Shown in pieces: positions 197 through 15,849 of a stretch of DNA of 17,192 nt. Source of the DNA: Firmicutes bacterium UBA4049. Lineage in GTDB: Bacteria > Bacillota > Desulfotomaculia > Desulfotomaculales > Nap2-2B. A program made the position numbers and the translations under genes. The stretch covers positions 1 to 17,192 of the forward strand of contig DFZT01000087.1 in assembly GCA_002382755.1 (NCBI GenBank), written 5' to 3'. Each line of letters opens with the position of its first letter. Within the stretch, counting starts at the first letter, position 1. Below the pieces are notes generated by a model. The model was not told the origin of the DNA. It did no database searches and saw nothing but the letters and a program-made list of their open reading frames with translations.

Positions 197-1774
197 TTAT
201 TGCAGGATGGCCGGTTTGAAATCAACCGAGTTGGTTAAGTCGTCAACGATATAAACCTCAACTACATCGCCTGGCTGTACGTTAAATCCAGCCCGGGCGG
301 TGTTAACTGCGTCAAAATCAGCCTTGGTAATGTTCGAACTTTGCCGGACCCCGTTCCTGGAATGAACAAAGACAACCGCTTCCAGCCCTTCATGCGCCCT
401 AACCGGCGTAACCCGGGCGCCGAAATATTTAAGGCCGTATACACCGTCGTTTACAGTCATGGCGCTGATACCTTCAGCCGTTTTACCGCTCTGATAAGCC
501 GTATCCGCTATTGGGGCGACTGTGTAAATCGCTCCGCCGGCGTCTGGCTGCTTTTTAAAGATATAGCTGTCTATTTTCTGCCCGCCGGCATCCTTGGCGG
601 TTAAGCTAAAAGTATCTCCATTAATGTCAACGATTTCGTAATTACTGACATTGGCAATCTCTTCGGCTATATAATCGTAATTTGGACCATGATCAGAAAA
701 CTTGTTCCCGGCGTTGCCCATGATATAGACGATGCCCCGGCCGTCAGCCTGAACCTGATTGTTCCTCAGGGGCTTGGTCCGCATATAGACATGCTGATGC
801 CCGTTAAAAACCGCGTCCGCCCGGCCTTGCTCCAGGAGGGGTACCCAGTTTTCCTGAAGAATGGCCGCATGGCCATCCGGCGCCGCCGGATAGGGCGGGT
901 AATGAAGAACAGCAAACTTCCACTGCTTGCGGCTGTTGTCAAGATCATTTCTCAGCCAGGCGCTGACCCTGCCGAAATTAGCGTCGGCGGGAGCGCCGAG
1001 ATAATTGCTGTCCAGTACGACAATATGGCAGTTTCCGTAATCAAAGGAGTAAAATTTTTCTTCCAGCCCTTCCGGCCCGTTCCGGGGCAAGGCAAAAGAA
1101 TTCCAGAACAACGGCGTATCGTCGTGGTTGCCCGCAGCCGGCATCAACGGAATCTGTTTAAAAACAGGAGAAGCGGCGTTAAAAAATTGCTGCCACTCCG
1201 CGCTGCTGCTGTCATCAACCAGGTCCCCGCCCAAAAGGGCAAATTTAGGGCAGGTTTTTTCAGCAGCAGCTGCCTGCAGCATATTTCCCCATTCCTCGTA
1301 ACCTTGCTGGGCATCACCCATATAAATGAAGGAAAAATTATCAGCGGCGCTTGCAGTGGTAAAAGAAGCCGGCTCGCTCCAGGCGCCTTCCCGCCCAACC
1401 CTGTATACGTAGCCGGCGCCGGGCGCCAGTCCCTGCAGGGTCGCTTCATAATGAAAATACCCCGGATAAAGATCGCTCCGGATTGCAAACGCATTTTGCG
1501 CACCGGAAAAATCATCGTTAGCGCCGGCGGCCGGCATGTATTGCGCCTGGTCGCCGATAATATCGTCGCTTGTACGCCAGGCGATAGTCTGAGTGGTCTC
1601 AGGATTTTCTGTCCATGATAGGATAATCTCATCGGGCTGTAGGCTACAGGTATTGTCATCAGCGGCTGCGCACATGCCGGCCATCAGTAAAAAAGCGGCA
1701 ACAGTACTCAACAGGGCCAACAAGCTGAGCATCTTTTGGGATCTTGGCTTACTTTTCCGTTTCACTAATCGCAC
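197..1774 (-). CDS. Exported purple-acid-phosphatase-like metallophosphoesterase
   Basis: A predicted secreted calcineurin-type phosphoesterase of 525 residues. A basic N-terminus and a hydrophobic stretch (about 15-37) form a signal peptide. A fibronectin-like purple acid phosphatase N-terminal domain follows (about 45-140), then the two-metal catalytic domain. All the metal-binding blocks are present: GDAQ at 153-156, GGDLVDD with D184, GNHD at 215-218, H291 in VLHYPPY, and GHQH at 325-328. The C-terminal 110 residues (about 415-525) are an extra domain that I do not recognise. The start is a GTG with AAGGA upstream; another GTG lies three codons in. It is the last clear gene of the minus-strand cluster, 66 bases after the protein with an inactive-looking phosphatase domain. 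By family it hydrolyses phosphate monoesters or diesters outside the cell; the substrate is unknown. Confidence 0.88.
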   Translation of the reverse strand: MRLVKRKSKPRSQKMLSLLALLSTVAAFLLMAGMCAAADDNTCSLQPDEIILSWTENPETTQTIAWRTSDDIIGDQAQYMPAAGANDDFSGAQNAFAIRSDLYPGYFHYEATLQGLAPGAGYVYRVGREGAWSEPASFTTASAADNFSFIYMGDAQQGYEEWGNMLQAAAAEKTCPKFALLGGDLVDDSSSAEWQQFFNAASPVFKQIPLMPAAGNHDDTPLFWNSFALPRNGPEGLEEKFYSFDYGNCHIVVLDSNYLGAPADANFGRVSAWLRNDLDNSRKQWKFAVLHYPPYPAAPDGHAAILQENWVPLLEQGRADAVFNGHQHVYMRTKPLRNNQVQADGRGIVYIMGNAGNKFSDHGPNYDYIAEEIANVSNYEIVDINGDTFSLTAKDAGGQKIDSYIFKKQPDAGGAIYTVAPIADTAYQSGKTAEGISAMTVNDGVYGLKYFGARVTPVRAHEGLEAVVFVHSRNGVRQSSNITKADFDAVNTARAGFNVQPGDVVEVYIVDDLTNSVDFKPAILQ

Positions 1775-1840
1775 TTTGACTTTCCTTTCTCAGTCGGGCA
1801 GTTAACTCTTATTGCGGAAAGGCCGGCAAGTTCTTTATCT

Positions 1841-3325
1841 TTATTGAAATCTCCAGTAAGGCACAAACATATTATCATTGGTAAACTGCCCTTTTCCCCC
1901 GTTTAACCGGCTGGACCGGGTTCCTTGATTTCCGGTGATAATAACCTTGCCCGTCCACTTGTCAATGATTTGTTGGAGATACTTGTCCGCAGCGCTGATT
2001 GTCCGCATTGTCGGTTGGGCCAAATTGCCATAGCGCTGCCCGGCGCTATCAATATCATGAAAACGGAGTACTATCAAATCGTAGCCTTTGTCCAGATTGT
2101 CCATTGCCGTTTGATACAGCTCATCGTCGGAATTGCCGTCAGCGTCTTGATCAGTAACAGAAACCGGCTGTATTTCAGTTTCCAACCGCTTCCGGTCAGC
2201 CTCCAAATAGAGCGTCTTTTTATTTAACCTGTTTGCCTCCGCAAAAATCGACGGCGCTTTCAGCCGCTGGTCATTTGAGGCTAAAATACCATTTTCTCCG
2301 GCTGTTTGTCCTGTTAACAGAGCAGCCAGCCCTACATTGATCTCAAGCGGATATACCCCGGATGCCTTTATAACTTTGCCGCTATTTTTAAGGAACGGCG
2401 CATACCCTTTTGAAGCGGCATAGCGATACTGGTTGTAAGCGAGCCCGTCCAGAGCCGCCACCAGCAGTTTATCACCGCCGTTAAGATAATGCTCTGTGTC
2501 ATAGTAAACATCCATGATACTTGCGGCGGGCGGCCGAACAATTACTCCTTTCACCTTCTCAAGAACCGTACGTGTTTCAGGCTGAAGGCAATTGACATAA
2601 TTGTCCTTTACTTCAAAACAGCTCCGGTTATCCGCCATGCTGCATTCGCCTTTTTCGCCCATTACCAGGAAGGCCTCCCCGTCTTTAACAGGAATTAAAT
2701 CGCTTAATTTAAAAATCCGACACCTTGTAAAAACTTGCGATTCATAATCTTTTCCGTTGTTTTGCACGACTGCTTTCCCCTCCGGGTTGAGGTACTGCTT
2801 TAATGATCCGGTCAAGAGCTTTCCCGGTGTAATTTGAGCCAGATTACTGTCCTGGCTGATAACATTAAATGCGAAATCTCCGGTATCGCCATTTGACACC
2901 ACTACAATTTCAGTAAGGAGTTTGACGTTGCTGTTAACGGGGTGCTTCAGGTTGACGGCTTCCCAGCCATTTTTAGAGGTATAAGCGATAAAACAATCAT
3001 CAATACTGTCCACTTTAACGGCCGAGACAAACCCGTCGGCGCCTACTAAATAAAGTTGACTGATATTGGGCGCAGGATCAGCCTTTTCAATAACGTCCGC
3101 CAGCTTAACCGCCCTGTATCTGGTTCCCTGGAAAGTTATCCGGACCGGTTTGCCAATCCCTTTCAGATCTTGAAGAGTATAGCTGTTGACGACATCACCA
3201 ATCACTTTCAGGGGCGGAATAAAGTGGGAGCTATGGAAGACTAACATGGTTGCTACTCCTATTGCCAGTCCAAGCAAACCCGGGCAGATACCTAACAGCC
3301 AACTTCTTTTAAGCATATTTTCCAT
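1841..3325 (-). CDS. Membrane-anchored protein: molybdopterin-oxidoreductase-like region plus inactive-looking alkaline-phosphatase-like domain
   Basis: A 494-residue protein with one N-terminal membrane segment (about 9-30) and no lipobox. Residues 40-150 have the pattern of oxidoreductase molybdopterin-binding (SUOX-like) domains, including a 'G-x-x-Y-x-x-V-x-L-x-D-V-I' segment. A second, weaker similar unit covers about 173-265. Residues 285-494 match the type I phosphodiesterase/alkaline phosphatase fold: ALDG (D293), LLTGQTAGENGI (335-347), DIDSAGQRYG (424-433), VIITGNQG (461-468) and a C-terminal MFVPY. However, the catalytic blocks are altered: no Thr/Ser at the nucleophile position before LLTG, Gln430 for the His of DxxGH, Asn466-Gln467 for the Asp-His of SDHG, and Lys478 for the usual last His. 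It is therefore probably a binding or scaffold module. A second ATG three codons in has better SD spacing (GGATGG). Confidence 0.75.
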   Translation of the reverse strand: MENMLKRSWLLGICPGLLGLAIGVATMLVFHSSHFIPPLKVIGDVVNSYTLQDLKGIGKPVRITFQGTRYRAVKLADVIEKADPAPNISQLYLVGADGFVSAVKVDSIDDCFIAYTSKNGWEAVNLKHPVNSNVKLLTEIVVVSNGDTGDFAFNVISQDSNLAQITPGKLLTGSLKQYLNPEGKAVVQNNGKDYESQVFTRCRIFKLSDLIPVKDGEAFLVMGEKGECSMADNRSCFEVKDNYVNCLQPETRTVLEKVKGVIVRPPAASIMDVYYDTEHYLNGGDKLLVAALDGLAYNQYRYAASKGYAPFLKNSGKVIKASGVYPLEINVGLAALLTGQTAGENGILASNDQRLKAPSIFAEANRLNKKTLYLEADRKRLETEIQPVSVTDQDADGNSDDELYQTAMDNLDKGYDLIVLRFHDIDSAGQRYGNLAQPTMRTISAADKYLQQIIDKWTGKVIITGNQGTRSSRLNGGKGQFTNDNMFVPYWRFQ

Positions 3326-3369
3326 CCTTCAGCGGCGCTACTTTCATCAATATATATCATATATCCTGT

Positions 3370-4491
3370 TTATGGCTGACTGCGGCCAACTTCTATAGAA
3401 AGCAGATTATCCAGACTGCTTCCGCCGGACACGCCGGAGGAGACGAAGGACAGACACCCCCGGGCATTCTGGTAAATCAAGCCGTTGCCCAGTTCATCCG
3501 TTTTCAATTCAACACTCACGCCGTCAATTCCGGTAAACTTATACCAGACGCTCCCCGCCATGCCTGTTTCCTTGATAATTTGCGATAAAGCGATTCCTTC
3601 CTTATCTTCAAAGGTCTGTTTGGGCAGGCAGGCGATCCCCTCTGTATAGTCGAAGAAAGCTGTCTGACCATAAATAATAAAAAGCAGATCCCGGATATGC
3701 ATACCTTCAGGCAGTTTCGGAGCGATAAATTTGGGCGCTTCTTTGCCGGTTATTTTGAGATAAGACCCCAGGAAGTTTGCCCTGGTCTCGTTTTTCTGCA
3801 GTCCGTCGCCGGCCTTCATCAGGACGTTAGTCACGGCCTGATCGCCGATATCGGCATATTTTGTGACGAGATCCCCGGTTTTAACAGTCTTATCCGTACT
3901 ATCGTAGTATTGATAATCTTCCTGGGGCAGCTGCCCAACAGCTGTCTCCAGGAATACCAGCTTGTTGACCGGTTTCAGGCTGTCCCCCGTCTCAAAATCC
4001 ATTCGAATCATTTCTCTAACCCAGTACATGGACCGCTCACCGGGAATGATTATGCGGACCGGCTGGCAGTCAGCCTCCAGGGGTTTGCCGTCATTGATAT
4101 AGGACAGGATGATTTCACGGTTTGCCAGAATATCACGCGAAACGGCAATTGAATATTTGTCCCTGGCAGTAAAGCGGATGCGGCTGAAATCTTTCTGGCT
4201 TTTCCCGTACTGGCGCAGGAAGGTATCGAGCAGCGGGCCGGTCGCATCGACACTGATTTTTTCTCCGTTGGTCCGCGTAGCCTCGCCATGCCTGGTTACC
4301 GCCTTCAGCTTTCTGAGATCGTCCTGGGTTATTTCAAAATCCTGATCTTTTAAACCGTGTACGAAAATCTTCTCTTTCGAAAAAAGGCTGGAGGCGCCAG
4401 TGGCTGATTCTTGCCTGTCACAGGCGGCCATGATGATCAGCAAGAGCAGGACAATGGGCAGCAGGAACAGCTTTTTTATAATTGTATTCAT
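3370..4491 (-). CDS. Lipoprotein with molybdopterin-oxidoreductase-like domain
   Basis: A 373-residue predicted lipoprotein. The hydrophobic N-terminus ends in a lipobox, IMAAC, with the lipidated Cys at about residue 24. Residues about 45-165 resemble the oxidoreductase molybdopterin-binding fold (PF00174 type): a TGPLLDTFL block, then a GKPL...PVRIIIPGERSMYWVREM block, which closely follows the domain's C-terminal strand. I see no cysteine in the place of the molybdenum ligand. The C-terminal half (about 190-373) may hold a second, more diverged copy (GIALSQIIKETG...). It lies between the small anchored protein and the phosphatase-like protein, all on one strand with gaps of under 50 bases. 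The role is inferred only from context: an extracytoplasmic binding component of the cluster. Confidence 0.72.
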   Translation of the reverse strand: MNTIIKKLFLLPIVLLLLIIMAACDRQESATGASSLFSKEKIFVHGLKDQDFEITQDDLRKLKAVTRHGEATRTNGEKISVDATGPLLDTFLRQYGKSQKDFSRIRFTARDKYSIAVSRDILANREIILSYINDGKPLEADCQPVRIIIPGERSMYWVREMIRMDFETGDSLKPVNKLVFLETAVGQLPQEDYQYYDSTDKTVKTGDLVTKYADIGDQAVTNVLMKAGDGLQKNETRANFLGSYLKITGKEAPKFIAPKLPEGMHIRDLLFIIYGQTAFFDYTEGIACLPKQTFEDKEGIALSQIIKETGMAGSVWYKFTGIDGVSVELKTDELGNGLIYQNARGCLSFVSSGVSGGSSLDNLLSIEVGRSQP

Positions 4492-4527
4492 AAGTTAACT
4501 AGCCCCTTCCATCAGCTCTTTTTTCAT

Positions 4528-5064
4528 CTACTGTAATTCCAGGCTTACCAGCCAATATGTAAAGCGCTGCCCAAACTCGTCGTTGCAGATGATGACTTTC
4601 ATGCTTCCATCCCCGCCTGCTTTTGTCTTTAACGGTTTACCGTAATCGGCATAGACGATATACACATTATCCGGCTGCAGAACTTCGTCCATAGACATAC
4701 CGGAGGTATAATTATCTACGCCTTTAGAGACAATCTTTTTATGTTTTTGAGTCAGCGCCGGGTCGATACTGTTTAATACGGTCAGGAGAGGAACACCGGT
4801 AAAATCGTGTACGGTATTGCCACGGGTTGAATGAATCGTCATTCTCTTATCTACCGTTGGCAGTTTCCGGAGATCGGCAACTGTAAAACTGCCCAATACC
4901 GTATCGCCGGCTTTAATTACCAGCGCTCCTTCTTTGAGTCCGCTGCTTTTTCCCCGTTCCAGAAGCGAAAGGAAGGCAACTATCAGGACAAGCAGCATGA
5001 TACAAAACACTAGTATCTTTTTAGAACTAATACTGTTGCTTTTCACGGCGTTTGCTTCGTCCAT
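4528..5064 (-). CDS. Small membrane-anchored protein with molybdopterin-oxidoreductase-like domain
   Basis: About 178 residues from the ATG at 5064: a short cytoplasmic tail, one membrane segment (about 16-35) and an outside domain. The domain shows the short SUOX-like signature also seen in the neighbours: VADLRKLP, then FTGVPLLTVLNSID, DNVYIVYADYGKPL and a closing FTYWLVSLEL. The molybdenum-ligand cysteine and arginine-rich cofactor contacts of true sulfite oxidases are not apparent. I chose ATG 5064 because a GAGGCGG site lies upstream of it. The frame is open to an ATG at 5121, but that codon has no ribosome site and would overlap the preceding SLH gene by 26 bases. It sits 31 bases after the SLH gene and 36 before the lipoprotein gene, so co-transcription is likely. 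Confidence 0.72.
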   Translation of the reverse strand: MDEANAVKSNSISSKKILVFCIMLLVLIVAFLSLLERGKSSGLKEGALVIKAGDTVLGSFTVADLRKLPTVDKRMTIHSTRGNTVHDFTGVPLLTVLNSIDPALTQKHKKIVSKGVDNYTSGMSMDEVLQPDNVYIVYADYGKPLKTKAGGDGSMKVIICNDEFGQRFTYWLVSLELQ

Positions 5065-5095
5065 CTCAACTGCCGCCTCTAATAAATATTTATTA

Positions 5096-6703
5096 CTAGC
5101 TAGGCTTGCCGCCCGTCGCATTCAAGATAACTGCAACAGTCTCTGCTCTGGTGGCATTACCACGGGGTCGAATGGTATTGTCAGGATAGCCATTCATGAT
5201 TTTGTTCCGGGTTGCTGTTGCAATGGCTTCCCTGGCCCAATCAGAAATATTTGCATTATCGGCATAATCAGTTTCTTCCGTCACTGTGTTAAGTTTCACG
5301 GCTTTAACAATCATCGCCGCCATCTGCTCACGGGTGATCAAATCATCAGGGCCGAAGGTGGTCTCATCATAGCCGCTGACTATACCGTGAAACGCCGCCG
5401 TGGCAATACTCTCTTTTGCCCAGTGATTGGCGGTGTCGGCAAACGCTTTGCCGCCCTCAGGCGCAAGCTTGAAAGCTTTTACCAGCACGGTGACAAATTC
5501 ACCTCTGGTGATAAATTTATCGGGTTTGAAGCTTCCATCCGGGTAACCGCCGACAGCGCCGAGGGCTGCCAGTTTTTTAATGCTGCTTTCCGCCCAGTGT
5601 CCGGCAATGTCGTTCAGTCCTGTTATCCCATTTAACGCGCCTTCAGGGATGTTAACTTGAGCGTCGCTGCCAGGAACGGTTGTTGCTGTTGCTGGGTTCA
5701 CCGTCACGGCGCAGGCGGCGGTTTTGCCTCCGTCTATCGTAGTCACGGTAATATCGGCGGAACCGGGAGCAACAGCCGTCACCAGGCCGGCGTCGCTGAC
5801 TGTGGCCACCGCGTCGTTGCTTGACTTCCAGGTTGCAGCCTTATTGGAAGCGCTTTCCGGGACGACAGTCGCAGTCAGTTGGCTGGTGGAACCGACATTG
5901 AGGACATCGGCGGATTTGTCGAGAGAAACGCCGGAAACAGAAACTATGGGTGTGGAGCCGCCGGAAGCGGAACCACCGTTGGAAGGCGAAGCTCCTATCA
6001 GTGTCACGTCGATCTGATAAATCCACTTGATTGAATACGGAGCGGTTATTTCGGCAGGATCATTATAGGGCTGGCCAATGGCAAGCCTATACTTTGTAGA
6101 ATCGTCTTGCGTGCTGAAGTCCGGCTCCATAGCCCCCCGTACCCAATTATCCGATACGCAGATCATCGGGTAAACCTGAATGGCGTCTTCCACAGCTTTG
6201 TAAGTAAAATCCGTAACGCTGTCCTCTGATAAAAAATTACAGGTATTCGAGTTCCAATATTTCATTTCATTTGGGTAATAAAATCGGGGCAAGTACAGGA
6301 AGGACTTGTCTAATGTCTTGTATGGCCTATTCGGAACATCGGTTGTATAAAACGCAAATGAATTTATTTTATCAAAATCAATGCCGGCTTCCGATAGAAG
6401 GTCAGTCAGCAATATTCCCGTCACCGCATCCATACATGGCGACGGCATACTATCCATGAAAGAATATTCCCGTTGAAACGCGCCGGCGAAGTCGTTGTCC
6501 GTAAAAACTTTCATCTCAGTGAAAGCTCCGTCTGAATAGCCGGCCCTGATTGTGAGAGATGCCGCCGCCTCGCTTTCGCTAAAGGGATCTGCGGCGGCTG
6601 TGCCTGGCTGCGCAACCCACAAAAAGCCAAGCAGCATAAATATCATCCAGCAAGTAACAATCTTCCGCATCATACTTTTGGTTCTGGATTCCAGCAACTT
6701 CAT
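5096..6703 (-). CDS. S-layer protein: molybdopterin-oxidoreductase-like domain, Ig-like domain, three SLH domains
   Basis: A 535-residue exported protein. The signal peptide covers about 10-38. Residues 48-238 form an N-terminal domain shared with the protein at 7742-8986: both have an MPS-x-C-x-D...G-x-x-L-T-D-L-L-x-x-x-G-I-D block (Cys90 here), FYYPNEMKYW, and SDNW. Residues 253-336 are a bacterial Ig-like group 2 domain (typical endings TVSDAGLVTAVAPGSADITV). Three S-layer homology motifs follow at about 363-412, 420-470 and 479-530, each with the aromatic-Ala-x-x-x-I and GYPDGSF/GYDETTF/GYPDNTI turns. SLH domains bind pyruvylated secondary cell-wall polymers (family knowledge), so this protein should sit on the cell wall while its paralogue sits on the membrane. 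The start ATG is preceded by GAAGGGGA. About 100 bases separate it from the DUF2149 gene. Confidence 0.9.
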   Translation of the reverse strand: MKLLESRTKSMMRKIVTCWMIFMLLGFLWVAQPGTAAADPFSESEAAASLTIRAGYSDGAFTEMKVFTDNDFAGAFQREYSFMDSMPSPCMDAVTGILLTDLLSEAGIDFDKINSFAFYTTDVPNRPYKTLDKSFLYLPRFYYPNEMKYWNSNTCNFLSEDSVTDFTYKAVEDAIQVYPMICVSDNWVRGAMEPDFSTQDDSTKYRLAIGQPYNDPAEITAPYSIKWIYQIDVTLIGASPSNGGSASGGSTPIVSVSGVSLDKSADVLNVGSTSQLTATVVPESASNKAATWKSSNDAVATVSDAGLVTAVAPGSADITVTTIDGGKTAACAVTVNPATATTVPGSDAQVNIPEGALNGITGLNDIAGHWAESSIKKLAALGAVGGYPDGSFKPDKFITRGEFVTVLVKAFKLAPEGGKAFADTANHWAKESIATAAFHGIVSGYDETTFGPDDLITREQMAAMIVKAVKLNTVTEETDYADNANISDWAREAIATATRNKIMNGYPDNTIRPRGNATRAETVAVILNATGGKPS

Positions 6704-6806
6704 TCCCCTTCTTCTTCAGTATTGCCAGCTTGATCTACGATAAAGCTTGGCAGCATCATAGCGCCTTGCATCTGACAAACACACGCTCAACAATCCAGGT
6801 TCCGTA

Positions 6807-7109
6807 TTATTTGTTAATTAGCATGAATAACCGTCCCGTAGCCGGGTCTTTATAAACCGTGCCCATTTTTTCATAAAGCTTTGTTTCTTTTAAATTGTTT
6901 TGTATATTCGGGTCCTGGGTCACCTCCTGACCGCGATTAAGATTGACGCTCTCTTTTGCGTAATCCAGATCAACATTCCAGTGGATAACCAGTGCGAGCA
7001 TCAACCCGCAGGCAAATACAAGCATGGCGTCTACAATGTTGATGGCGCCTTCAAGAGGATTGATCTCTTCGGATATTCTGCGGCTTCTATTCCGCAATCC
7101 CCCGTTCAC
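6807..7109 (-). CDS. DUF2149 family protein, ExbD-like partner of the channel protein
   Basis: About 100 residues with one membrane segment near the N-terminus. The segment INPLEGAINIVDAMLVFACG follows the ExbD/TolR pattern, in which an 'I/V-D-x-M-L-V' motif carries the proton-pathway aspartate. The rest is a short extracytoplasmic tail ending in DPATGRLFMLINK. I recognise it as DUF2149 from the NPLEG...NIVDAMLVF pattern. The gene overlaps the end of the ExbB-like gene, a sign of translational coupling. I prefer the GTG start at 7109, which has GGGGG nine bases upstream, over the TTG at 7115. Known DUF2149 genes often lie beside MotA/TolQ/ExbB genes in methanogens and anaerobes (from memory), as here. 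Direct function is unknown. Confidence 0.8.
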   Translation of the reverse strand: MNGGLRNRSRRISEEINPLEGAINIVDAMLVFACGLMLALVIHWNVDLDYAKESVNLNRGQEVTQDPNIQNNLKETKLYEKMGTVYKDPATGRLFMLINK

Positions 7110-7740
7110 GTGCAAACACCCCCAGCAAGCTTTCCATTAATGCCTCAAGAGAACTCAAATAATCTTCATACCATCTTTTCCGCAATTTTGAGATAACAAA
7201 GGCGACACCGGCGGCTGCCAGTCCGGATACTGTTGCGTCAAAAGCAGTAAGCAGGGAATCGGCCAGTGTTTTGGTATCACCCTGCCCAAGAGCAATCAGT
7301 CCCGGCCCAAGTGGAATCAAAGTGGCCATCAATCCAAACATCGGACCCAGACGAGCCACTATGTCAGTCCTGGAGGTTATCTTCGCATAATGCAGTTCCT
7401 CACTGACAAGCAGCCGGCGCGCCAGTGCCTGCAGGGAATCTGCCGGCAAATTACTGTTTGTGGTTAACTCGCCAAGAGCAGCTTTTTGGCGTTTAAAAAG
7501 GCGGCTGTCTGCAATAACATCCATGATTTCCTGTTCATTTTTACCCTGAAAGGCATTAACCAGTTCCGGCACATTCACCTTCGCCCTGCGCCGTTCTGTA
7601 AGAGCCTCCGCCAGCAGGCCGCCCGACTCGACGACTACCAAAGCCATAAACAACATCAAAATAATTATTACAGGAATTAGTAAACCAGTTGAAATATTGT
7701 GCATCGAATCTCTGAGCGACGCCGAAATAGATTCTGCCAA
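7087..7740 (-). CDS. MotA/TolQ/ExbB-type proton channel protein
   Basis: A 217-residue protein with three membrane segments: about 18-38, 131-152 and 167-185. The family signature is clear: LGPMFGLMATLIPLGPGLIALGQGD followed by FDATVSGLAAAGVAFVISKL, which holds the conserved threonine of the third helix. A cytoplasmic domain (about 45-125) separates helices 1 and 2, as in ExbB. Family members form ion-conducting pentamers around an ExbD-type dimer and turn proton flow into movement of an envelope partner. Here the natural partner is the overlapping DUF2149 gene. The start is a TTG with a strong GGGAGG site seven bases upstream. It begins one base after the stop codon of the preceding secreted protein, so the three genes are tightly coupled. 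No TonB or outer-membrane receptor is seen in the window. Confidence 0.9.
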   Translation of the reverse strand: MAESISASLRDSMHNISTGLLIPVIIILMLFMALVVVESGGLLAEALTERRRAKVNVPELVNAFQGKNEQEIMDVIADSRLFKRQKAALGELTTNSNLPADSLQALARRLLVSEELHYAKITSRTDIVARLGPMFGLMATLIPLGPGLIALGQGDTKTLADSLLTAFDATVSGLAAAGVAFVISKLRKRWYEDYLSSLEALMESLLGVFARERGIAE

Positions 7741-7741
7741 C

Positions 7742-8986
7742 TTAATCCTCCCTCATATATCCCACATACTTACTGCCTGAACCAAAAAGAAATAGCGTTA
7801 AAAACACTACAGCCGCATAAATATCCAGACTGTTTTGCTCCTTTTCCCGTTGCAAAGGCACAGCATCGGCTGACATCTCGAATACACGCCAGGGCTGACT
7901 GCCTGACTGCCCCAAAGAGATATTGATTCTCGACGACCCGGCGGATTCAGTCTCTTTTTCCATCAGGCGCCGTTGTTCCTGCACCCCATCGTTTTGAGAA
8001 CCGGCGCCGGAAGATCCAATACCCTGTCCATTAGTATTGTGGTTTGGATCATTCACGGTACAGGTATCTGTCATATTGCCAACTATTGTACTTACAGTGA
8101 TAACTGCAGCGCCTGGGCCGACAATTGTCACCATACCGTTTTCGTCTACCTTCGCCACGCTGGTATCGCTGGAACTCCAGAGCACGCTTTTATCTGCTGT
8201 TTCATCCGGGAACACGGTCGCTGTCAGGCGGAACGCACTGCCGACTTTAAGATTGACAACATTCTGATTGAGAGTAACTCCGGCGGGCGGCATACCGCCA
8301 AGCATAACTTCAATTGCATGCACCCACTTGGCGGACCGGCAAGCAAAGCGGGAATTGGTATCATTCTGACCGAACACTAACCTGAACCTGTTATCACCGT
8401 TCATCTGTGTAAAATCAGGAGAGGAGGCAAACCGCTGCCAATTGTCAAGTATTGCGATAACCGGATCTACCCTGATTGCTCCATAAACCGCCCCGGGGAT
8501 AGACGACTGATTGTTACTATCCCAGTACTCCGGCAGATTAGGATAGTAGTAACGGCTTGTGTCCAGCAAGAAAGACTTGGGCAGGCATTCATACCATCCC
8601 TTTTTGATATCTGTCGAGTAAAAATAAAAAGCCTCCACAGAATTAACATCAATGCCGGAATCCTCCAGCAAATCGGTAAGCTTCACTCCCCTGGCAGAAT
8701 CTATACACACTGACGGCATTTTATCGATAAATGTGTATGCCTGTTGTACCTGCGGCATTGCTTCCAGGTCACTGACCGCGTAGACTTTCTTCGTATAGTA
8801 TGGTCCGCCAAAATAACCAACCTTGATTGTCAGCGTGTCGGACGGTATACCTATTTTACTGATTGAATCAGCGCTTGCCGTGCCAGACATGACATTCATA
8901 AACAGGTTCAGCGTCACGATTAGCATTACTATAAAGGTGACAGTTTGCCGCAGTATGGTTTTAAGCTTCAGTACCTTTAGCTGCAT
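7742..8986 (-). CDS. Exported membrane-anchored protein: molybdopterin-oxidoreductase-like domain and Ig-like domain
   Basis: A 414-residue protein and the first gene after the leader. A signal peptide covers about 12-39 (TASADS cleavage region). Residues 48-230 are the same domain as in the SLH protein at 5096-6703, with the MPSVCID block (Cys94), G-x-x-L-T-D-L-L, FYFYSTD, RYYYPNLPEYW and ILDNW. A group 2 Ig-like domain follows at about 235-312. A low-complexity Gly/Ser/Gln-rich linker leads to a C-terminal hydrophobic segment (about 387-406) and a short charged tail, so the protein is probably held in the membrane at both ends or by its C-terminus. The ExbB-like gene starts one base after its stop. 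The C-terminal anchor next to a channel gene suggests contact with the ExbB/DUF2149 complex. The ATG has only a weak GAG site. Confidence 0.85.
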   Translation of the reverse strand: MQLKVLKLKTILRQTVTFIVMLIVTLNLFMNVMSGTASADSISKIGIPSDTLTIKVGYFGGPYYTKKVYAVSDLEAMPQVQQAYTFIDKMPSVCIDSARGVKLTDLLEDSGIDVNSVEAFYFYSTDIKKGWYECLPKSFLLDTSRYYYPNLPEYWDSNNQSSIPGAVYGAIRVDPVIAILDNWQRFASSPDFTQMNGDNRFRLVFGQNDTNSRFACRSAKWVHAIEVMLGGMPPAGVTLNQNVVNLKVGSAFRLTATVFPDETADKSVLWSSSDTSVAKVDENGMVTIVGPGAAVITVSTIVGNMTDTCTVNDPNHNTNGQGIGSSGAGSQNDGVQEQRRLMEKETESAGSSRINISLGQSGSQPWRVFEMSADAVPLQREKEQNSLDIYAAVVFLTLFLFGSGSKYVGYMRED

Positions 8987-9030: not shown

Positions 9031-9077
9031 AAAAAACAACGCTTAGCTTTATACATAAAGGTGCAAGCCAAGCGTTG
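9031..9077 (-). terminator. Intrinsic terminator in the leader of the minus-strand cluster
   Basis: On the minus strand the arms CAACGCTTGGCTT (9077-9065) and AAGCTAAGCGTTG (9049-9037) pair over 13 positions with one G-U pair, and are followed at once by TTTTTTG. It lies after the promoter and structured leader and 44 bases before the first start codon, where it can only act as an attenuator. That is the usual layout of a riboswitch expression platform. Confidence 0.8.
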
Positions 9078-9129
9078 CAAAAAGAAAACAGAGCCATACT
9101 TAAACAAAAACACTTATCGACATTTATCA

Positions 9130-9240
9130 GCAGGCAAGCTTCCCCTTTACGTAATGGAAGGAACGCCCATTTCCAGACGCTCCCAGTGGCCTGAATTCGT
9201 AGCTTCTGTTTCGGCTTTAGAAATTCAGACTCGGGGATTT
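9130..9240 (-). promoter_or_regulatory. Structured leader RNA, candidate Moco-type riboswitch aptamer
   Basis: Read on the minus strand, the leader holds CCCCGAGTC (9236-9228), a stem CTGAATT/AATTCAG (9228-9222 with 9197-9191), then GCCAC (9190-9186), an eight-pair hairpin GGAGCGTC/GGCGTTCC (9183-9176 with 9167-9160), then GTAAAGGGG (9150-9142) and CTTGCC. The order 'GCCAC, hairpin, CC, ..AAAGG.., GC(C)' resembles the E. coli moaA molybdenum-cofactor leader as I remember it, and CCCC can close the element with GGGG. The downstream genes encode molybdopterin-oxidoreductase-like domains, which fits. The structure is seen; the class is inferred. A cobalamin riboswitch was considered because of GCCACTGG but other boxes are missing. 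Confidence 0.5.
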
Positions 9241-9272
9241 TTATTTTTTTATATTATTTATCTTTAGCTATA

Positions 9273-10118: not shown

Positions 10119-10550
10119 GTCATGTACTGTATATATTGTTAATTGTCAACATGCAAATCGTATCAATCCATACAAATTACTGTTCTTAAAACAGCCCTTG
10201 CATTCGAGTAAACTTGCCCGCGCCCCCGGCCGCGCATCCGCTCCTTTCCGGCTGGGATTTTCTGATTGATTATGCATCGAAAACGACGACCGCCTTATAC
10301 AGCTTCGGAAGTGTTAAATTTTTGCCGAAGTTGTCCCTGCCTATGGTTCTTGCTCAGTAAACAAGAGGAATAAAAGGGAAACACGACGAATTAAGGACTG
10401 TATTTATAAGGATTGATTAATTTTATTGCGAAAAATGTGTCTGGCCTTACGCATCGTGCTGTTTCGGGTAAGACTTACATCTATTGGTACGGTTATATTA
10501 TTATTTATGTTATTATTAGTTTATTATTAGAAAAACCGGAGGGGATGATA
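10119..10550. other. Intergenic region upstream of the acyl-CoA synthetase genes
   Basis: No recognised gene. A small hairpin CTTCGG/CCGAAG occurs at 10303-10330. A short open stretch at about 10190-10360 lacks a convincing start. Positions 10490-10530 are AT-rich with several TATAAT-like hexamers, so the promoter of the downstream operon is probably here, but I cannot single one out. The frame of the synthetase gene is open back to 10413 without a ribosome site. Confidence 0.5.
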
Positions 10551-11996
10551 ATGAGCGCTGCCGGCCAGGTTAAAGGCAGCCTGAGCGGCTTGTTTAACGC
10601 CAGGAGCATTGCCGTTGTTGGGGCTTCACCCAAGAAGGATAAGCCGGGCAATCAGATTATCCGGTATGCTCAGGCTATGGACTTCGACGGGCAAATATAT
10701 CCAATTAACCCCACGCAAAAAACAATAGAAGGGCTTACGTGTTATCCGGACATCATGGATATTCCCGGCCGGCTGGACTTAATTGTGCTGGTTGTCGGCG
10801 CGGATGAATGTGTCAGGATGGCGCGGGAAATAGCCCGGCGGAGAGATGAAAAAGGTGACGTGGCCGGTATAGTGGTTGTTTCCGGAGGATTCAGCGAGGG
10901 AGGTTCGGTAAAAGGCGGAGAAAAAGAAAAGGCCATGCTGGAACCTTTGCAGGCCCGCAGTATAAGGCTAATCGGACCCAATTGCCTGGGAATCGTCGAT
11001 CAATACAGTGGCGTGAATACCACATTTGATGTGCCGCCTTACATTAAAGGCGGGGTTTCCGTAGTTTCCCAAAGCGGCGCGCTGGCCGCCTCATTTCTCA
11101 CCTGGGCTAAAGACATGGAGCAAATCGGCATCAGTAAGTTTTTTACGGTAGGCAACATGGCTGATGTAGGCGTGGACGAAGCGGTGGAATTTCTTGGCGA
11201 AGATGAAAATACCAAGGTCATCGCCTTGTACGTGGAAGGAATCAGACAGGGAAGGCGCTTTGTGGAAGCGGCTAAAAAGGTATCGCAAACGAAACCGGTA
11301 GTGGCATACAAAAGCGGGCGGACCTCGTTTGGCTCCGGGGCGGTGCGCAGTCACACGGGTGCAGTGGCCGGCAACGACAGGATTTATGATGGCGCGTTTC
11401 GCCAGGCCGGCGTTATTCGAGCCGCAACTATCGCGGAATTCTTTTATACCGTCTGCGCTATGGGCAAGCAGCCGCTGCCCAGGGGAAACCGGATATGTGT
11501 TCTTACTGTTGTCGGCGGGCCGGGAACAATTTGCATAGACGCTCTGCAGGCGACCGGTGTTGTGGAAATGGCCCGACTGTCCGACGGTACCAAGGAGTAT
11601 TTAAAAGAAATACTCGCCCCGACGGCTGTCGTCGGCGAGCCGCATGGGTATGTGGATCTGACGGCTTCCGTAACTAAAGAGATGCATGAAGAGATTGTTA
11701 GAATCATCCTTGCTGATGAAGGCGTGGACGGGTTAATCTATTTGAATACTCCTCCGCCTTTTTTAAGCGATGAAAAGCTTGTCGAGAGCATCTTGAAAGG
11801 GTATAATTCCTTTCCCGAAGAAGAGCGGAAGCCCTTGCTCTGCGTACTCACATTCGGATCAAACGTCTCCGGGCTGAGGCTTCTCTTTGAGCGAGGCGGC
11901 ATACCCACCATGGAATTTCCCGACGTAGCGGCCGTCGTTATGGCGAATATGATCCGATATAGTGAATGGAAAAATGCCCATAAAACCTTTAAATAA
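10551..11996 (+). CDS. ADP-forming acyl-CoA (acetyl-CoA) synthetase, alpha subunit
   Basis: A 481-residue cytoplasmic subunit of an enzyme that converts acyl-CoA, ADP and phosphate to the free acid, CoA and ATP. The N-terminal CoA-binding Rossmann domain (about 8-140) has IAVVGASPKKDKPGNQI and YPINP. Two succinyl-CoA-ligase-like flavodoxin domains follow, with IGPNCLGI (141-148), SQSGALAASF (173-182) and the block VRSHTGAVAGND, in which His268 is the expected phosphohistidine. The length suits the alpha subunit of split archaeal-type enzymes. I chose ATG 10551 because GGAGG lies eight bases upstream; the open frame before it (from 10413) is hydrophobic, AT-rich and unlike the family. The beta subunit follows 38 bases later. 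In such anaerobes the enzyme gives substrate-level ATP from acetyl-CoA or other acyl-CoAs; which acyl group cannot be told. Confidence 0.92.
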   Translation: MSAAGQVKGSLSGLFNARSIAVVGASPKKDKPGNQIIRYAQAMDFDGQIYPINPTQKTIEGLTCYPDIMDIPGRLDLIVLVVGADECVRMAREIARRRDEKGDVAGIVVVSGGFSEGGSVKGGEKEKAMLEPLQARSIRLIGPNCLGIVDQYSGVNTTFDVPPYIKGGVSVVSQSGALAASFLTWAKDMEQIGISKFFTVGNMADVGVDEAVEFLGEDENTKVIALYVEGIRQGRRFVEAAKKVSQTKPVVAYKSGRTSFGSGAVRSHTGAVAGNDRIYDGAFRQAGVIRAATIAEFFYTVCAMGKQPLPRGNRICVLTVVGGPGTICIDALQATGVVEMARLSDGTKEYLKEILAPTAVVGEPHGYVDLTASVTKEMHEEIVRIILADEGVDGLIYLNTPPPFLSDEKLVESILKGYNSFPEEERKPLLCVLTFGSNVSGLRLLFERGGIPTMEFPDVAAVVMANMIRYSEWKNAHKTFK

Positions 11997-12034
11997 ATTT
12001 CACGCTTAATTTAATTAAAAAGGCGGGTTCAATA

Positions 12035-12760
12035 ATGGATTGCAAAAAAATTGTCAAAGATGCTTTGGCCGCGGGAAGAAGTCATTTGCTGGAACCGGAA
12101 GCTTATCAGGTTTGTGATGAGTTTAAAATAACTTATCCTCAATTCATTTATGTTTCAAATACGGAAGATGGAGCAGCAGCCGCCAGATCGATAGGCTTTC
12201 CTGTGGCAATCAAAGTGGTGTCCCCGCAAATCATTCATAAAACCGACGCTGGCGGTGTTGTTACCAACATTCAATCGGAGGAGCAATTCACCAACGAGTA
12301 TGACACCATGCTTCAGAATGTGCGAAAAAATGCCCCGGCTGCCGAGATAAGCGGAGTGATTGTCCAAAAGTCCATGCCCAAAGGCGTGGAAGTAGCGGTT
12401 GGCGGTTTAAGGGATTCGCAGTTTGGGCCGGTAGTTATGTTCGGGGCGGGAGGTATTTTAATTGAAGTGCTGCAAGACGCGTCCTTCAGGCTGGCGCGGC
12501 TCGACAGGGAAGAGGCATTAAGGCTGATTAAGGAAACCAAGATTTATAAGATCCTGCAAGGCGTGCGCCGGAACGAACCCAGCGATGTTGAAGTATTGGC
12601 GGATCTTGTAGTTAATGTTGGTAATTTGCTTGTGGACATTCCGGAAATCAGCGAACTGGATTTCAATCCGGTGCTGTCTTATCCTGACCGGTACGCGGTC
12701 ATTGACGCGCGGATATTATTATCCAGCTTAATTCAAACTTCCGTATCCAATTCAGATTAG
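12035..12760 (+). CDS. ADP-forming acyl-CoA (acetyl-CoA) synthetase, beta subunit
   Basis: A 241-residue ATP-grasp subunit that binds ADP/ATP and exchanges phosphate with the histidine of the alpha subunit. The diagnostic block GFPVAIKVVSPQIIHKTDAGGV covers about 54-75. Further ATP-grasp elements are VQKSMPKGVEVAVGGLRDSQFGPVVMFGAGG (about 110-140) and the metal-binding end SELDFNPVL (about 208-216). The length matches stand-alone beta subunits (about 230-240 residues) of split enzymes, as opposed to the fused form of about 700 residues. AAAGGCGGG precedes the ATG. Orientation and spacing show co-transcription with the alpha gene. Confidence 0.92.
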   Translation: MDCKKIVKDALAAGRSHLLEPEAYQVCDEFKITYPQFIYVSNTEDGAAAARSIGFPVAIKVVSPQIIHKTDAGGVVTNIQSEEQFTNEYDTMLQNVRKNAPAAEISGVIVQKSMPKGVEVAVGGLRDSQFGPVVMFGAGGILIEVLQDASFRLARLDREEALRLIKETKIYKILQGVRRNEPSDVEVLADLVVNVGNLLVDIPEISELDFNPVLSYPDRYAVIDARILLSSLIQTSVSNSD

Positions 12761-13324: not shown

Positions 13325-13376
13325 CAACTGCCTGCGTACTCATGTTCGCCTTAGGCCGCCGTTGTCAGGTTCGCTC
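13325..13376. repeat. Diverged repeat, copy 1
   Basis: A stretch starting CAACTGCCT and ending GGTTCGCTC, about 80 % identical by eye to 14133-14186 in the same orientation. It fills the gap between the convergent DUF6125-like and flavin reductase-rubredoxin genes. Confidence 0.65.
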
Positions 13377-14068
13377 TATATTTCTTTAAATTCAGATTTG
13401 GCAGCCCCGCAAACAGGACAAACCCAATCAGAAGATAGTTTTTCAAATGGTGTGCCAGCCGGTACGCCGTTATCCGGATCACCTATTTCGGGATCATAGG
13501 TATACCCACAGACAGAACAAGTGAATTTTCCCGTTTTCCCCGCCGCCACTGCTTCCGGAGCCTGGCTTTTAATATAAGTAGGCGCGTTCTGGCTCACGCC
13601 TCCCTTCTTAACTTGCTGATAATAAGCGTAAGTCATCGGAGTTCCTTCCTTTAGAACCTCCGCCTCCATAACCTCCCCTATAAAGACTGTATGGGTCAGC
13701 GCGTCAATCTCACTGATCACCCTGGCGCCAATGTAAGCCAGTGTATTATCGACAAGATATGGTGTTCCATCCTGACTCAACAAGTAATTAACGCCGTTAA
13801 ATTTGTCAGTATCTCTGCCGCTTTTGAAACCAAACTGTCCGATTAATGACAGAGGCGCATCCTGTGACAGTACCGAAACAACAAATGATTTGCTTTCCCG
13901 TACATACTCATTGGTTAGATTTTTTTTGTTGAGGCTGATTGCAATAGTCATTGGTTCGCTTGAAATTTGAAAAACCGTGTTAGCAACCTGTCCGTTCAGC
14001 CGGCTTCCCTTCTTTGAAGAAATGACGTAAAGCCCATAGCTTAAATTGTACAATGCCTTAGAATTCAA
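13376..14068 (-). CDS. Flavin reductase-rubredoxin fusion (high-molecular-weight rubredoxin type)
   Basis: A 230-residue cytoplasmic electron carrier. Residues 1-155 are a flavin reductase-like FMN-binding domain: [24 protein letters not shown], then [12 protein letters not shown] and [13 protein letters not shown] short linker (about 160-180) leads to a complete rubredoxin at 181-230 with CSVCGY (Cys184, Cys187) and CPVCGA (Cys217, Cys220) binding one iron. The arrangement matches the Moorella high-molecular-weight rubredoxin, which takes electrons from NADH and passes them to the flavodiiron protein FprA for O2 or NO reduction (family knowledge). No FprA gene is in the window; rubrerythrin and desulfoferrodoxin nearby could be acceptors. 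GGAGGTG precedes the ATG. It is set apart from the other stress genes by a 350-base gap containing a repeat. Confidence 0.9.
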
Positions 14069-14132
14069 TGCTTTACACCTCCAATAACGATGTATTGCCT
14101 ATTTCCCGAAAATTAACTTACCTTAGGAAGGT

Positions 14133-14186
14133 CAACTGCCTACGCGCTTAATAATCGCCTCAAGCCGTCGTTGTCACGGTTCGCTC
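14133..14186. repeat. Diverged repeat, copy 2, with inverted elements next to it
   Basis: Same orientation and pattern as 13325-13376. It continues into CACGG...CCGTG (about 14176-14199), able to form a hairpin, and a second ACGGTTCGCT about 40 bases after the first. Such short GC-richer intergenic elements are often dispersed in a genome; other copies cannot be checked here. Confidence 0.6.
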
Positions 14187-14420
14187 AGGTGCTCCGTGCC
14201 GGCAACACCAACGGTTCGCTTCGGACAGGACCAGGCGGCGCTGCAAAGGCAGCAAGACAGGCGCGAAATAAACCGAACATTAAATTCCCGACATCACTAA
14301 GTCTTTTCAAGAAACCTTGAGTGTGCCGCTGGTTTCGCACCGCAGTCCTGTAACTGAAGCTTCACCGGGCGCTATAGCGACACTTAAGCAATATCGCTCA
14401 CCTGTGAACAACGACGCCCT
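14187..14420. other. Intergenic region without recognised gene
   Basis: Apart from the tail of the repeat, I see only small palindromes (TGAAGCTTCA near 14357, CGCTATAGCG near 14371). It separates the end of the LapA-like gene from the flavin reductase-rubredoxin gene, whose promoter should lie at about 14080-14150; I could not assign one. Confidence 0.5.
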
Positions 14421-14714
14421 CTAATTAATAGGGTTCACTCGTTCTTTGTCAGTTTCCATTTTTTTGAGGTCTTTGATCTGCGCTTCAAGCTGAAGGATAT
14501 AACTTCTTTTTTTAAGCTGCCAGACAAACACAAAACAAAGTGTAACCAGAGACCCCAATAATGCGGATAAAAGTATTACAACTATTTTTGAAACGCTTTG
14601 GACCTTCCAGAAGAGAAAGTTAATAGATACACTTTCAGCATTCTGTACAGAAAAGATAGAAATTATTATAGCAAATATGGTCGCCATTAAAAAATAAAAT
14701 TGGTTTTTACTCAT
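14421..14714 (-). CDS. LapA-like (DUF1049) small membrane protein
   Basis: A 97-residue protein with two membrane segments (about 6-24 and 39-62) around a short loop, FSVQNAESVSINFLFWKVQSVS, followed by a basic coiled-coil tail (QLEAQIKDLKKMETDKERVNP). The loop 'Q-N-x-x-x-V-x-I-x-F-L-F-W' and the second helix with GSLVTL are typical of the LapA/YciS family, linked with envelope assembly. I chose ATG 14714, which has AGGTG upstream. The open frame reaches back to 14843, but that part overlaps the rubrerythrin gene and reads as an unrelated frame. It follows rubrerythrin by about 70 bases that contain a hairpin. Confidence 0.82.
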   Translation of the reverse strand: MSKNQFYFLMATIFAIIISIFSVQNAESVSINFLFWKVQSVSKIVVILLSALLGSLVTLCFVFVWQLKKRSYILQLEAQIKDLKKMETDKERVNPIN

Positions 14715-14725
14715 GATTTCACCTA

Positions 14726-14757
14726 AGGCGAGCCAAACATTTCTGTCCGGCTCGCCT
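14726..14757 (-). other. Perfect hairpin between rubrerythrin and LapA-like genes
   Basis: AGGCGAGCC and GGCTCGCCT pair over nine bases around a 14-base loop. There is no T-run after it on the minus strand, so it is not a classic terminator. It lies just before the ribosome site of the LapA-like gene and after the rubrerythrin stop, where it could stabilise the upstream mRNA 3' end or tune downstream translation. Confidence 0.6.
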
Positions 14758-14785
14758 ATTAAATTCAGGTTTTTTCCAATTGAGT

Positions 14786-15361
14786 TTAATAGTTTTCGGC
14801 AAGAATCTCGAAATACGCCTGGGGATGTGTGCAAGCGGGGCACATTTCCGGCGCAGTAGTTCCCTCGTGGATATACCCGCAGTTTCTACATTTCCACCTG
14901 ACTACTTCCTCCTTTTTAAAGACCTTTCCTTTTTCTATGTTTTCCAGAAGCTTCAGGTAACGTTTCTCATGCTGTTTCTCTGAAACAGCCACTGCCCTGA
15001 AAACCTCCGCTATCTCAGAAAATCCCTCTTCATCCGCAATACGCGCAAATTCAGGATACATTTGGCTGTATTCTTCTCTCTCTCCACCTGCGGCGGCTTG
15101 AAGATTCTCTTCGACGGTTTTGATTTCACCAGCCGGAAAGGCAGCCGTAATTTCAACATTACCGCCTTCTAAGAATCTAAAAAACCTTTTGGCATGCTCT
15201 TTTTCATTGTCTGCAGTTTCAAGGTAGATTGCCGCTATCTGCTCATAACCATCCTTTTTAGCAGCAGATGCAAAGTAGGTATAGCGGTTCCTGGCCTGTG
15301 ATTCACCGGCAAAAGCTGTTAGAAGATTTTTCTCAGTTTGTGTCCCTTTTAAACTTTGCAT
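14786..15361 (-). CDS. rbr: Rubrerythrin
   Basis: A 191-residue cytoplasmic peroxidase that reduces hydrogen peroxide to water in anaerobes. Residues 1-145 are the ferritin-like four-helix domain with the diiron ligands visible: Glu20, Glu53 and His56 (DNEKEH), Glu94 and Glu97 (GEREE), Glu128 and His131 (SEKQH). Residues 153-191 are a rubredoxin-like domain with CRNC (158, 161) and CPAC (174, 177). Length and layout are standard. AGGAGGT precedes the ATG. It lies downstream of desulfoferrodoxin and a broken ferritin-like gene on the same strand, so superoxide would be turned to peroxide and then to water by products of one operon. Electrons probably come from a rubredoxin such as the fusion encoded at 13376-14068. 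Confidence 0.96.
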   Translation of the reverse strand: MQSLKGTQTEKNLLTAFAGESQARNRYTYFASAAKKDGYEQIAAIYLETADNEKEHAKRFFRFLEGGNVEITAAFPAGEIKTVEENLQAAAGGEREEYSQMYPEFARIADEEGFSEIAEVFRAVAVSEKQHEKRYLKLLENIEKGKVFKKEEVVRWKCRNCGYIHEGTTAPEMCPACTHPQAYFEILAENY

Positions 15362-15412
15362 AATGAATACCTCCTAGTGCTCAAGTTGTATTGTATTCCG
15401 ATCCGAAAAATT

Positions 15413-15831
15413 TTAGGCAGATAATAATTTCTCCCAGCGCCTTACGTGCTCCTGCTCATCAGCACGATTTTTTTTCAGCACTTTGCGCGGTATCCTGATC
15501 CCAGTCAACAGTCCCAAGCAGTTTATTGTAGTGTTTAGTAGCTTCTTTTTCTACCCTAATATTAGTTTTAAAACCCTTTTCATGCCCAGGATGCGTGAGA
15601 AACAACCCAAAACTTGTCCGCAGAGGGAAAATAAATATCTTAATATTCATGGACGAATATACATGGACAAAATCCGAATTCATATATCTTCACCTGAAAA
15701 TCCTGGACATGTGTCATCTCATTCAACACTTTCCGGATAGCCTTGAGCCTTGTCGGGGGACAGCCGCGGCCCCTTACCTGCACATCCCGGTCTTTCACTT
15801 CAGTACGTATTATCAAATCATTGTTTGACAC
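15413..15831 (-). pseudogene. Frameshifted ferritin-like (COQ7-like) diiron protein
   Basis: Three frames in series add up to one ferritin-like protein. The first runs from GTG 15831 (strong AAGGAGGAAGG site) and contains LNEMTHVQDFQVKIYEFGF, ending at a stop near 15640. The second contains KTNIRVEKEATKHYNKLLG and TVDWDQDTAQ (about 15580-15480). The third reads KVLKKNRADEQEHVRRWEKL and stops at 15413. The E-x-x-H pairs (NEMTH, DEQEH) and the 'VEKEA-x-x-H-Y...L-L' helix match COQ7/demethoxyubiquinone hydroxylase-like and related diiron carboxylate proteins. At least two shifts separate the frames and the N-terminal part looks short. It starts 18 bases after desulfoferrodoxin. Either the gene has decayed recently, since its ribosome site and operon place are kept, or the sequence has indel errors. 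Confidence 0.7.
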
Positions 15832-15849
15832 TCTAGCCTTCCTCCTTGG

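Follow-up and report, generated by a model that had tools for sequence, protein, structure and literature searches.

What would an anaerobe with a Gram-positive-type envelope do with an ExbB-type channel set among exported proteins of the SUOX (sulfite oxidase) family? The question is raised by an operon of eight open reading frames (ORFs) on contig DFZT01000087.1 of Firmicutes bacterium UBA4049, all minus strand and read from position 8986 to 197 (Table 1). The window, that is, the whole stretch of DNA analysed, is the entire contig of 17,192 bases (source genome 1.8 Mb, 93% complete), and the downstream side of the operon lies beyond its end. The system is real and conserved. Sequence and structure models together make it somewhat probable that it serves the energised capture and import of a tungsten/molybdenum (W/Mo) pterin-dithiolene cofactor, or of a derived molybdopterin or pterin, in Gram-positive-type anaerobes; the transport, its energisation and the ligand are parts that we infer. 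An earlier sequence-only reading of the window had proposed an energised machine reaching from the membrane to the S-layer, perhaps acting on a Mo/W compound, a pterin or some other ligand, and the shared fold and gene co-occurrence described below support it. That reading did not include the riboswitch at 9126-9248, which is the strongest clue to function.

The genes are closely packed, with spacings in operon order of +1, -29, +103, -26, +36, +44 and +66 nucleotides (nt), and all eight are where eight same-strand genes with mostly short gaps or overlaps had been described. Five of the products had been called SUOX-like; all five do hold the domain, and iterated profiles refine the total to six SUOX-type domains in these five extracytoplasmic proteins. 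Pfam puts Oxidored_molyb over its cut-off in 3370-4491 and 4528-5121, gives the domain of 7742-8986 an E value of only 0.19, and places none in 1841-3325 or 5096-6703, the latter having three SLH domains and a Big_2 domain. The profiles find it in 1841-3325, 5096-6703 and 7742-8986 and add a second SUOX-like domain to 3370-4491. Models of the 7742-8986 and 4528-5121 domains (predicted local distance difference test [pLDDT] scores of 93.2 and 95.0) have the SUOX/PruR fold, resembling both sulfite oxidase and PruR, a periplasmic pterin-binding protein that is the best structural match of the latter (7kom). The match to PruR holds in fold and in sequence profile, and the outside domains share a fold as had been anticipated, modelled for two of them and extended to the others by sequence profiles alone.

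These domains are predicted to stand at several depths of the envelope, held by the S-layer, a C-terminal membrane anchor, a lipid anchor or an N-terminal helix. The family looks to be exported by Sec, with signals of Sec or lipoprotein type, and a simple motif test finds a twin-arginine-like motif in 5 of 118 ORFs and in none of the window's five SUOX proteins. Among related loci (L-numbers denote fetched loci, of which the comparisons cover 121, and G-numbers genomes), L055, L058, L061 and L206 each code for a single surface-type protein with five to seven SUOX-like domains. Such proteins might instead be extracytoplasmic Mo/W oxidoreductases of the SUOX family, since one source names the homologue P0059 YedYZ-like, two Syntrophomonas wolfei genes are called putative sulphite oxidases by Regulski et al., and the window's branch has a cysteine (Cys) near a possible ligand region. 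However, no alignment column across 91 SUOX domains exceeds 30% Cys, so that a conserved Mo-ligating Cys is absent, the window's five lack the twin-arginine-like motif, and the modelled domains are shorter than the enzymes; catalysis is accordingly a role we think quite improbable.

Gene content in relatives argues that SUOX proteins, ExbB and DUF2149 form one system. DUF2149 is present in 34 of 398 genomes of the phylum, of which 20 have adjoining SUOX genes, 9 form a higher-scoring group without SUOX, and 5 also lack it; because 20 of the 34 carry SUOX genes beside DUF2149, the arrangement is not due to chance. The three tested loci of the higher-scoring group have CobN proteins. When the search is reversed and starts from the first gene's SUOX domain class, 22 of the 398 genomes give a strong match (<1e-35), and DUF2149 is present in 20 of the 22. 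The 121 loci combine two sets, one of them the best 80 of 174 loci from a scan of named genomes with the ExbB alignment; in 63 of the 121, SUOX genes are found near ExbB-DUF2149 (E < 1e-6), and the co-occurrence expected by the sequence-only reading is borne out. The loci are partly redundant (L113/L049, L115/L065, L117/L064, L122/L137 and L153/L059, with L052/L054 from the same genus), and locus counts and p values are therefore inflated. None of the 25 last-ranked loci (L168-L192; archaeal, Bacteroidetes and proteobacterial) has SUOX, and the better-ranked L121, labelled Parabacteroides, does. Named hosts, which we take to be monoderm, include Syntrophomonas, Pelotomaculum, Dethiobacter, Mogibacterium and Family XIII bacteria.

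The candidate motor, recognized earlier as an ExbB-type channel with an ExbD-like DUF2149 protein, is confirmed by Pfam in both parts (MotA_ExbB PF01618, 33.2 bits against a cut-off of 22.9; DUF2149 PF09919, 41.6 bits against 27.1). The window's ExbB is 46-78% identical to 17 other ExbB proteins (alignment A2), and DUF2149 has an IVDAMLV-type helix whose Asp motif is present in 94 of 95 homologues. As had been noted, TonB and a TonB-dependent receptor are not found by Pfam among the eight products, to which this search was confined. The candidate partner is the protein encoded next to the channel: 94 ExbB genes have a gene ending ≤100 nt upstream, which in 51 cases is a SUOX gene, 41 of these with a hydrophobic C-terminal stretch and 25 with an RVFEM-like segment. 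CobN/Mg-chelatase (PF02514), which would mark an Hmu-type system, is absent from the eight products but present at L068, L070 and L073 and partial at L057 and L042, where the same C-terminal ending follows the partial CobN domain, suggesting that binding domains may be swapped on one coupler. Such a membrane-anchored partner of ExbB-DUF2149, bearing part of a CobN domain, is seen in L042, L057 and L060 (tested for the first two). L057 further carries a family 5 solute-binding protein and ATP-binding cassette (ABC) genes of oligopeptide type. At L051 a cobalamin riboswitch (L051:1614-1855) sits at the start of ExbB in a pair without SUOX, as would suit a motor that several cofactor systems have in common.

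The riboswitch is an aptamer of the molybdenum cofactor (Moco)/tungsten cofactor (Tuco) class, ~140 nt upstream of the first gene. In its alignment to the RF01055 family the P3 stretch is deleted, as in the Tuco type; P3 absence is read by alignment for this aptamer, whereas the other aptamers are compared by length, two of them, at L118 (137 nt) and L197 (140 nt), being clearly longer. P3-less aptamers are tied to the tungsten cofactor by Regulski et al. 2008. The terminator-like hairpin at 9031-9078 alone folds at -20.8 kcal/mol and is not among the hits of a consensus scan. RF01055 is present in 21 of 23 system genomes. At locus level the riboswitch accompanies 19 of 63 SUOX loci versus 1 of 33 SUOX-less Firmicutes/Actinobacteria loci (p 0.0013, redundant loci included), counted with an RNA model from 14 aptamers and with Rfam on part of the loci; the model was built mostly from SUOX-side aptamers, a bias that counts against the comparison. 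A set of 28 riboswitches, some from loci picked for SUOX and excluding the duplicate L117 and L137 aptamers, that of L082 and two tandem ones of L197, has a next gene in reach in 25 cases: 15 SUOX, 2 metallophosphatase, 2 ApbE, 1 ferredoxin-like and 5 others. No next gene was found for the other 3, and oxidoreductase ORFs had appeared behind two (L125 and L127).

Tungsten-type aldehyde ferredoxin oxidoreductase genes follow shortly after system and riboswitch at L122, L125 and L127. At genome level, both the riboswitch (18 of 20 system genomes versus 202 of 378 others) and aldehyde ferredoxin oxidoreductase (19 of 20 versus 209 of 378) go with the system, an association that is weak because relatedness is uncorrected. 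Other riboswitches of this class precede different genes: the second one in the L082 genome (7719-7836) lies ahead of the gene for the small subunit of a NiFe hydrogenase (6111-7118), which is not known to require Mo or W, and ApbE-family genes stand directly behind riboswitches at L197:12560-13573 and L198:1711-2784.

A link to uptake comes from energy-coupling factor (ECF) transporters, which are importers that take up organic vitamins or Ni/Co by way of their S components; for FolT the substrate is folate, itself a pterin. An S component of PF09819 type is present in 14 of 63 SUOX loci versus 1 of 58 others, and in L058, L062, L119 and L123 the S component, a further helix and a C-terminal SUOX domain form one polypeptide adjoined by ABC ATPase genes (by Pfam for L062, by reading for the other three). 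In L118, homologues of 3370-4491 and 1841-3325 are followed directly by an S component, then by a 4528-5121 homologue and by ATPase-like and T-like genes; L132 resembles it except that its second gene is shorter. Contig C32 of the window's own genome carries a second SUOX cluster, which includes an S component (PF09819, 51.5 bits), two ABC_tran genes and CbiQ, a complete ECF set, and PF09819 is found in 7 of the 9 system genomes that were searched. This second cluster also codes for a TrmO-SUOX fusion (L193:5597-6904), with an FmdE match below threshold in between; L048:13132-13956 is a TrmO-FmdE protein without SUOX. Together, riboswitch and ECF fusions lend independent support to a Mo/W-pterin link and to uptake.

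Phosphatases also recur. Metallophos and Pur_ac_phosph_N are over cut-off in 197-1774, whose catalytic motifs were read by eye, and a metallophosphatase occurs in 20 of 63 SUOX loci versus 0 of 58 others at E < 1e-90, a threshold used because the profile also caught SUOX proteins (1e-32 to 1e-40) and archaeal L169 (6e-59). The end of 1841-3325, described earlier as phosphatase-like, is instead a phosphodiesterase domain; against what we take to be the type I catalytic motifs, its Thr/metal-ligand motifs have degenerated in all 6 aligned homologues, which makes binding a more probable role for it than cleavage, and 197-1774 is more likely the active phosphatase of the locus. Removal of phosphate from the cofactor before import is a guess. 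Both the S-component fusions and the recurring phosphatases favour nutrition over pterin sensing, in which PruR-like domains would bind a secreted pterin and ExbB-DUF2149 would transmit or reset a signal across the envelope. Sensing gains from the closeness of the 4528-5121 domain to PruR, a signalling protein, but by Pfam none of the eight products has a cytoplasmic signalling domain, of DcpA type or any other, and we hold it to be unlikely.

Syntrophomonas wolfei (G055) connects this family to an earlier puzzle. Regulski et al. 2008 name two of its P3-less aptamers as possible exceptions, lying at 'putative Moco-utilizing sulphite oxidase' genes. The genome has 14 aptamers at eleven places, L052 included. 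At two of these places the next same-strand gene is SUOX: in L052 it lies 953 nt downstream, and in L206 it codes for a single protein with five SUOX domains. The pair probably corresponds to the two exceptions, and their SUOX proteins, to judge from sequence, belong to the present surface family. One L052 protein combines a metallophosphatase with SUOX, SLH and Shr-type HID domains, an HID domain of this kind being found in two related proteins. The other nine places, partly by reading, have formate-dehydrogenase-like genes, Moco synthesis genes, a TupA-like transporter set, a pyrophosphatase-like gene and two PF01497 binding proteins; the last (L200 and L209) are possible further Mo/W or cofactor importers. 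That this riboswitch class precedes the TupA-like solute-binding set and the PF01497 proteins would suit capture of molybdate/tungstate or a metal chelate rather than a pterin. Against this, the closest fold for which an exported binder is known belongs to a pterin binder, S. wolfei already has the TupA-like set, and the substrates of S components are organic vitamins or Ni/Co; we see an oxyanion or chelate as an improbable ligand.

Several observations weigh against import of a pterin cofactor. System genomes mostly have synthesis genes (MoaA in 20 of 23, MoaC in 19 of the same 23, MoeA in 20 of 23), so the cofactor is probably made there, and the system would save it rather than be needed. 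A Cys precedes a GVKL-type motif in the domains of 7742-8986 and 5096-6703 and in relatives at L040 and L043, and a metal ligand is thus possible in the window's branch. According to PMC13259868, Moco is likely too large for the pocket of PruR, so the ligand may be a simpler pterin. For the window's channel pair, proton coupling is something we infer from homology. The window has no ECF genes, and PF09819 was not found in two of the nine system genomes searched (G142 and G348). Finally, 44 of 63 SUOX loci, some on short contigs, have no riboswitch, an Rfam scan of one set of loci found none in 8 of 8, and the terminator forms with P1 free or forced, compatible with an ON or an OFF switch.

Although the window lacks Moco synthesis genes, as had been noted, its genome has MoaA, MoaC and MoeA. 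MoaA and MoaC are both missing in G348, G364 and G385, MoaC alone in G142, and MoeA in G228, G364 and G385, the last two of which do carry genes for aldehyde ferredoxin oxidoreductase. An argument for uptake from auxotrophy was set aside, as the synthesis genes lie within ~5 kb in G344 of the same family, such that a single missing contig could explain their absence, and the genomes are 79% and 87% complete. Synthesis genes in most hosts would also suit outward delivery, with cofactor made inside being loaded onto exported proteins; ECF transporters import, and a family-wide metal-ligating Cys is absent, making this a very unlikely direction.

Table 1. Features of the operon and its leader in the window
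Position	Strand	Feature	Basis
9126..9248	minus	Moco/Tuco riboswitch aptamer RF01055, P3-less	Rfam 59.5 bits (gathering 36), alignment
9031..9078	minus	Terminator-like hairpin and U-run between aptamer and first gene	Read by eye, folding
7742..8986	minus	Candidate receptor/coupler: signal peptide, SUOX-fold domain (54-229), Big_2, RVFEMS segment, C-terminal helix, short tail	
7087..7740	minus	ExbB/MotA/TolQ-type proton channel	PF01618 33.2 bits, alignment A2
6807..7115	minus	DUF2149 protein, ExbD-like Asp helix	PF09919 41.6 bits
5096..6703	minus	SUOX protein with S-layer anchor: SUOX (52-235), Big_2, three SLH	Pfam, iterated profiles
4528..5121	minus	SUOX/PruR-like domain, N-terminal membrane anchor	PF00174 32.5 bits, model pLDDT 95.0
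3370..4491	minus	Putative lipoprotein, two SUOX-like domains	PF00174 31.5 bits, profiles S4 and S3C
1841..3325	minus	N-terminal helix, SUOX-like domain (54-236), degenerate type I phosphodiesterase domain	Pfam, profiles, alignment
197..1774	minus	Purple-acid-phosphatase-like metallophosphatase, secreted	PF16656 65.8 bits, PF00149 58.5 bits

Elsewhere in the window, 13376-16230 is an oxidative-stress cluster (flavin reductase-rubredoxin, rubrerythrin and desulfoferrodoxin), and 10413-12760 codes for a CoA-binding/succinyl-CoA-ligase-type protein followed, by reading, by an ATP-grasp-like ORF, perhaps a two-gene ADP-forming acyl-CoA synthetase.

In the import reading, SLH-anchored domains would catch pterin cofactor that is released from lysed cells or held by proteins, and the secreted phosphatase would strip its phosphate. 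The C-terminally anchored SUOX protein, in the role of TonB, would be driven through a proton-powered cycle by ExbB-DUF2149 and would pass the ligand to the lipoprotein and membrane-bound domains; the ECF transporter from the genome's second SUOX cluster would take it inside, and the riboswitch would couple expression to the cellular state of the cofactor. More tentatively, this could be the first dedicated bacterial import route for the W/Mo pterin cofactor, with an S-layer-to-membrane SUOX/PruR relay, an ExbB-DUF2149 motor acting via a C-terminally anchored receptor, an ECF importer and the cofactor's own riboswitch, and it would belong to a broader class whose shared motor works with exchangeable domains for binding cofactors, CobN in the case of tetrapyrroles and SUOX in that of pterins.

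The passage of pterins across the membrane is given as unknown in a 2026 review, and a Caenorhabditis elegans study raises the question of how Moco from the diet is harvested and gets through membranes. The system is not described in the titles or opening abstracts of the open-access literature searched, and the terms searched for in two S. wolfei papers led to no passage on it. It offers a gene set with which to test cofactor crossing, present in the one-contig genome of S. wolfei, and a possible explanation for the riboswitch-associated 'sulphite oxidases' left as exceptions in 2008. If the import reading is true, ExbB-type motors drive cofactor uptake without TonB in Gram-positive-type cells, and sharing of tungsten cofactor may connect members of syntrophic communities.

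Four known systems are similar in part. The Isd/Shr haem relays of Gram-positives have NEAT domains at several wall depths and end at an importer; the repetition of a binding domain through the wall is alike, as is the Shr-type HID in two related proteins, but those relays use NEAT domains for haem and are not known to have an ExbB-type motor. TonB-ExbB-ExbD likewise has an ExbB-type channel together with an Asp helix of ExbD kind, and a third protein anchored in the membrane, although the third protein of the window is anchored C-terminally and carries the binding domain itself, with TonB and receptor absent among the eight products. The Hmu haem systems of Bacteroidetes (hmuYRSTUV) also pair ExbB-DUF2149 with a large cofactor-handling protein, and in PMC10434189 the hmu operon has CobN, ExbB and DUF2149 genes and is upregulated under iron deficiency; the CobN protein and TonB-dependent receptor of Hmu, neither of them among the eight products, give way in the window to SUOX domains and an S-layer anchor. 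PruR is alike in its SUOX fold, export, lack of a Mo-ligating Cys, and Asp/Asn and Tyr motif region, but it is a single soluble signalling protein of Proteobacteria, whereas the present system has many anchored copies, a motor and, in relatives, ECF importers.

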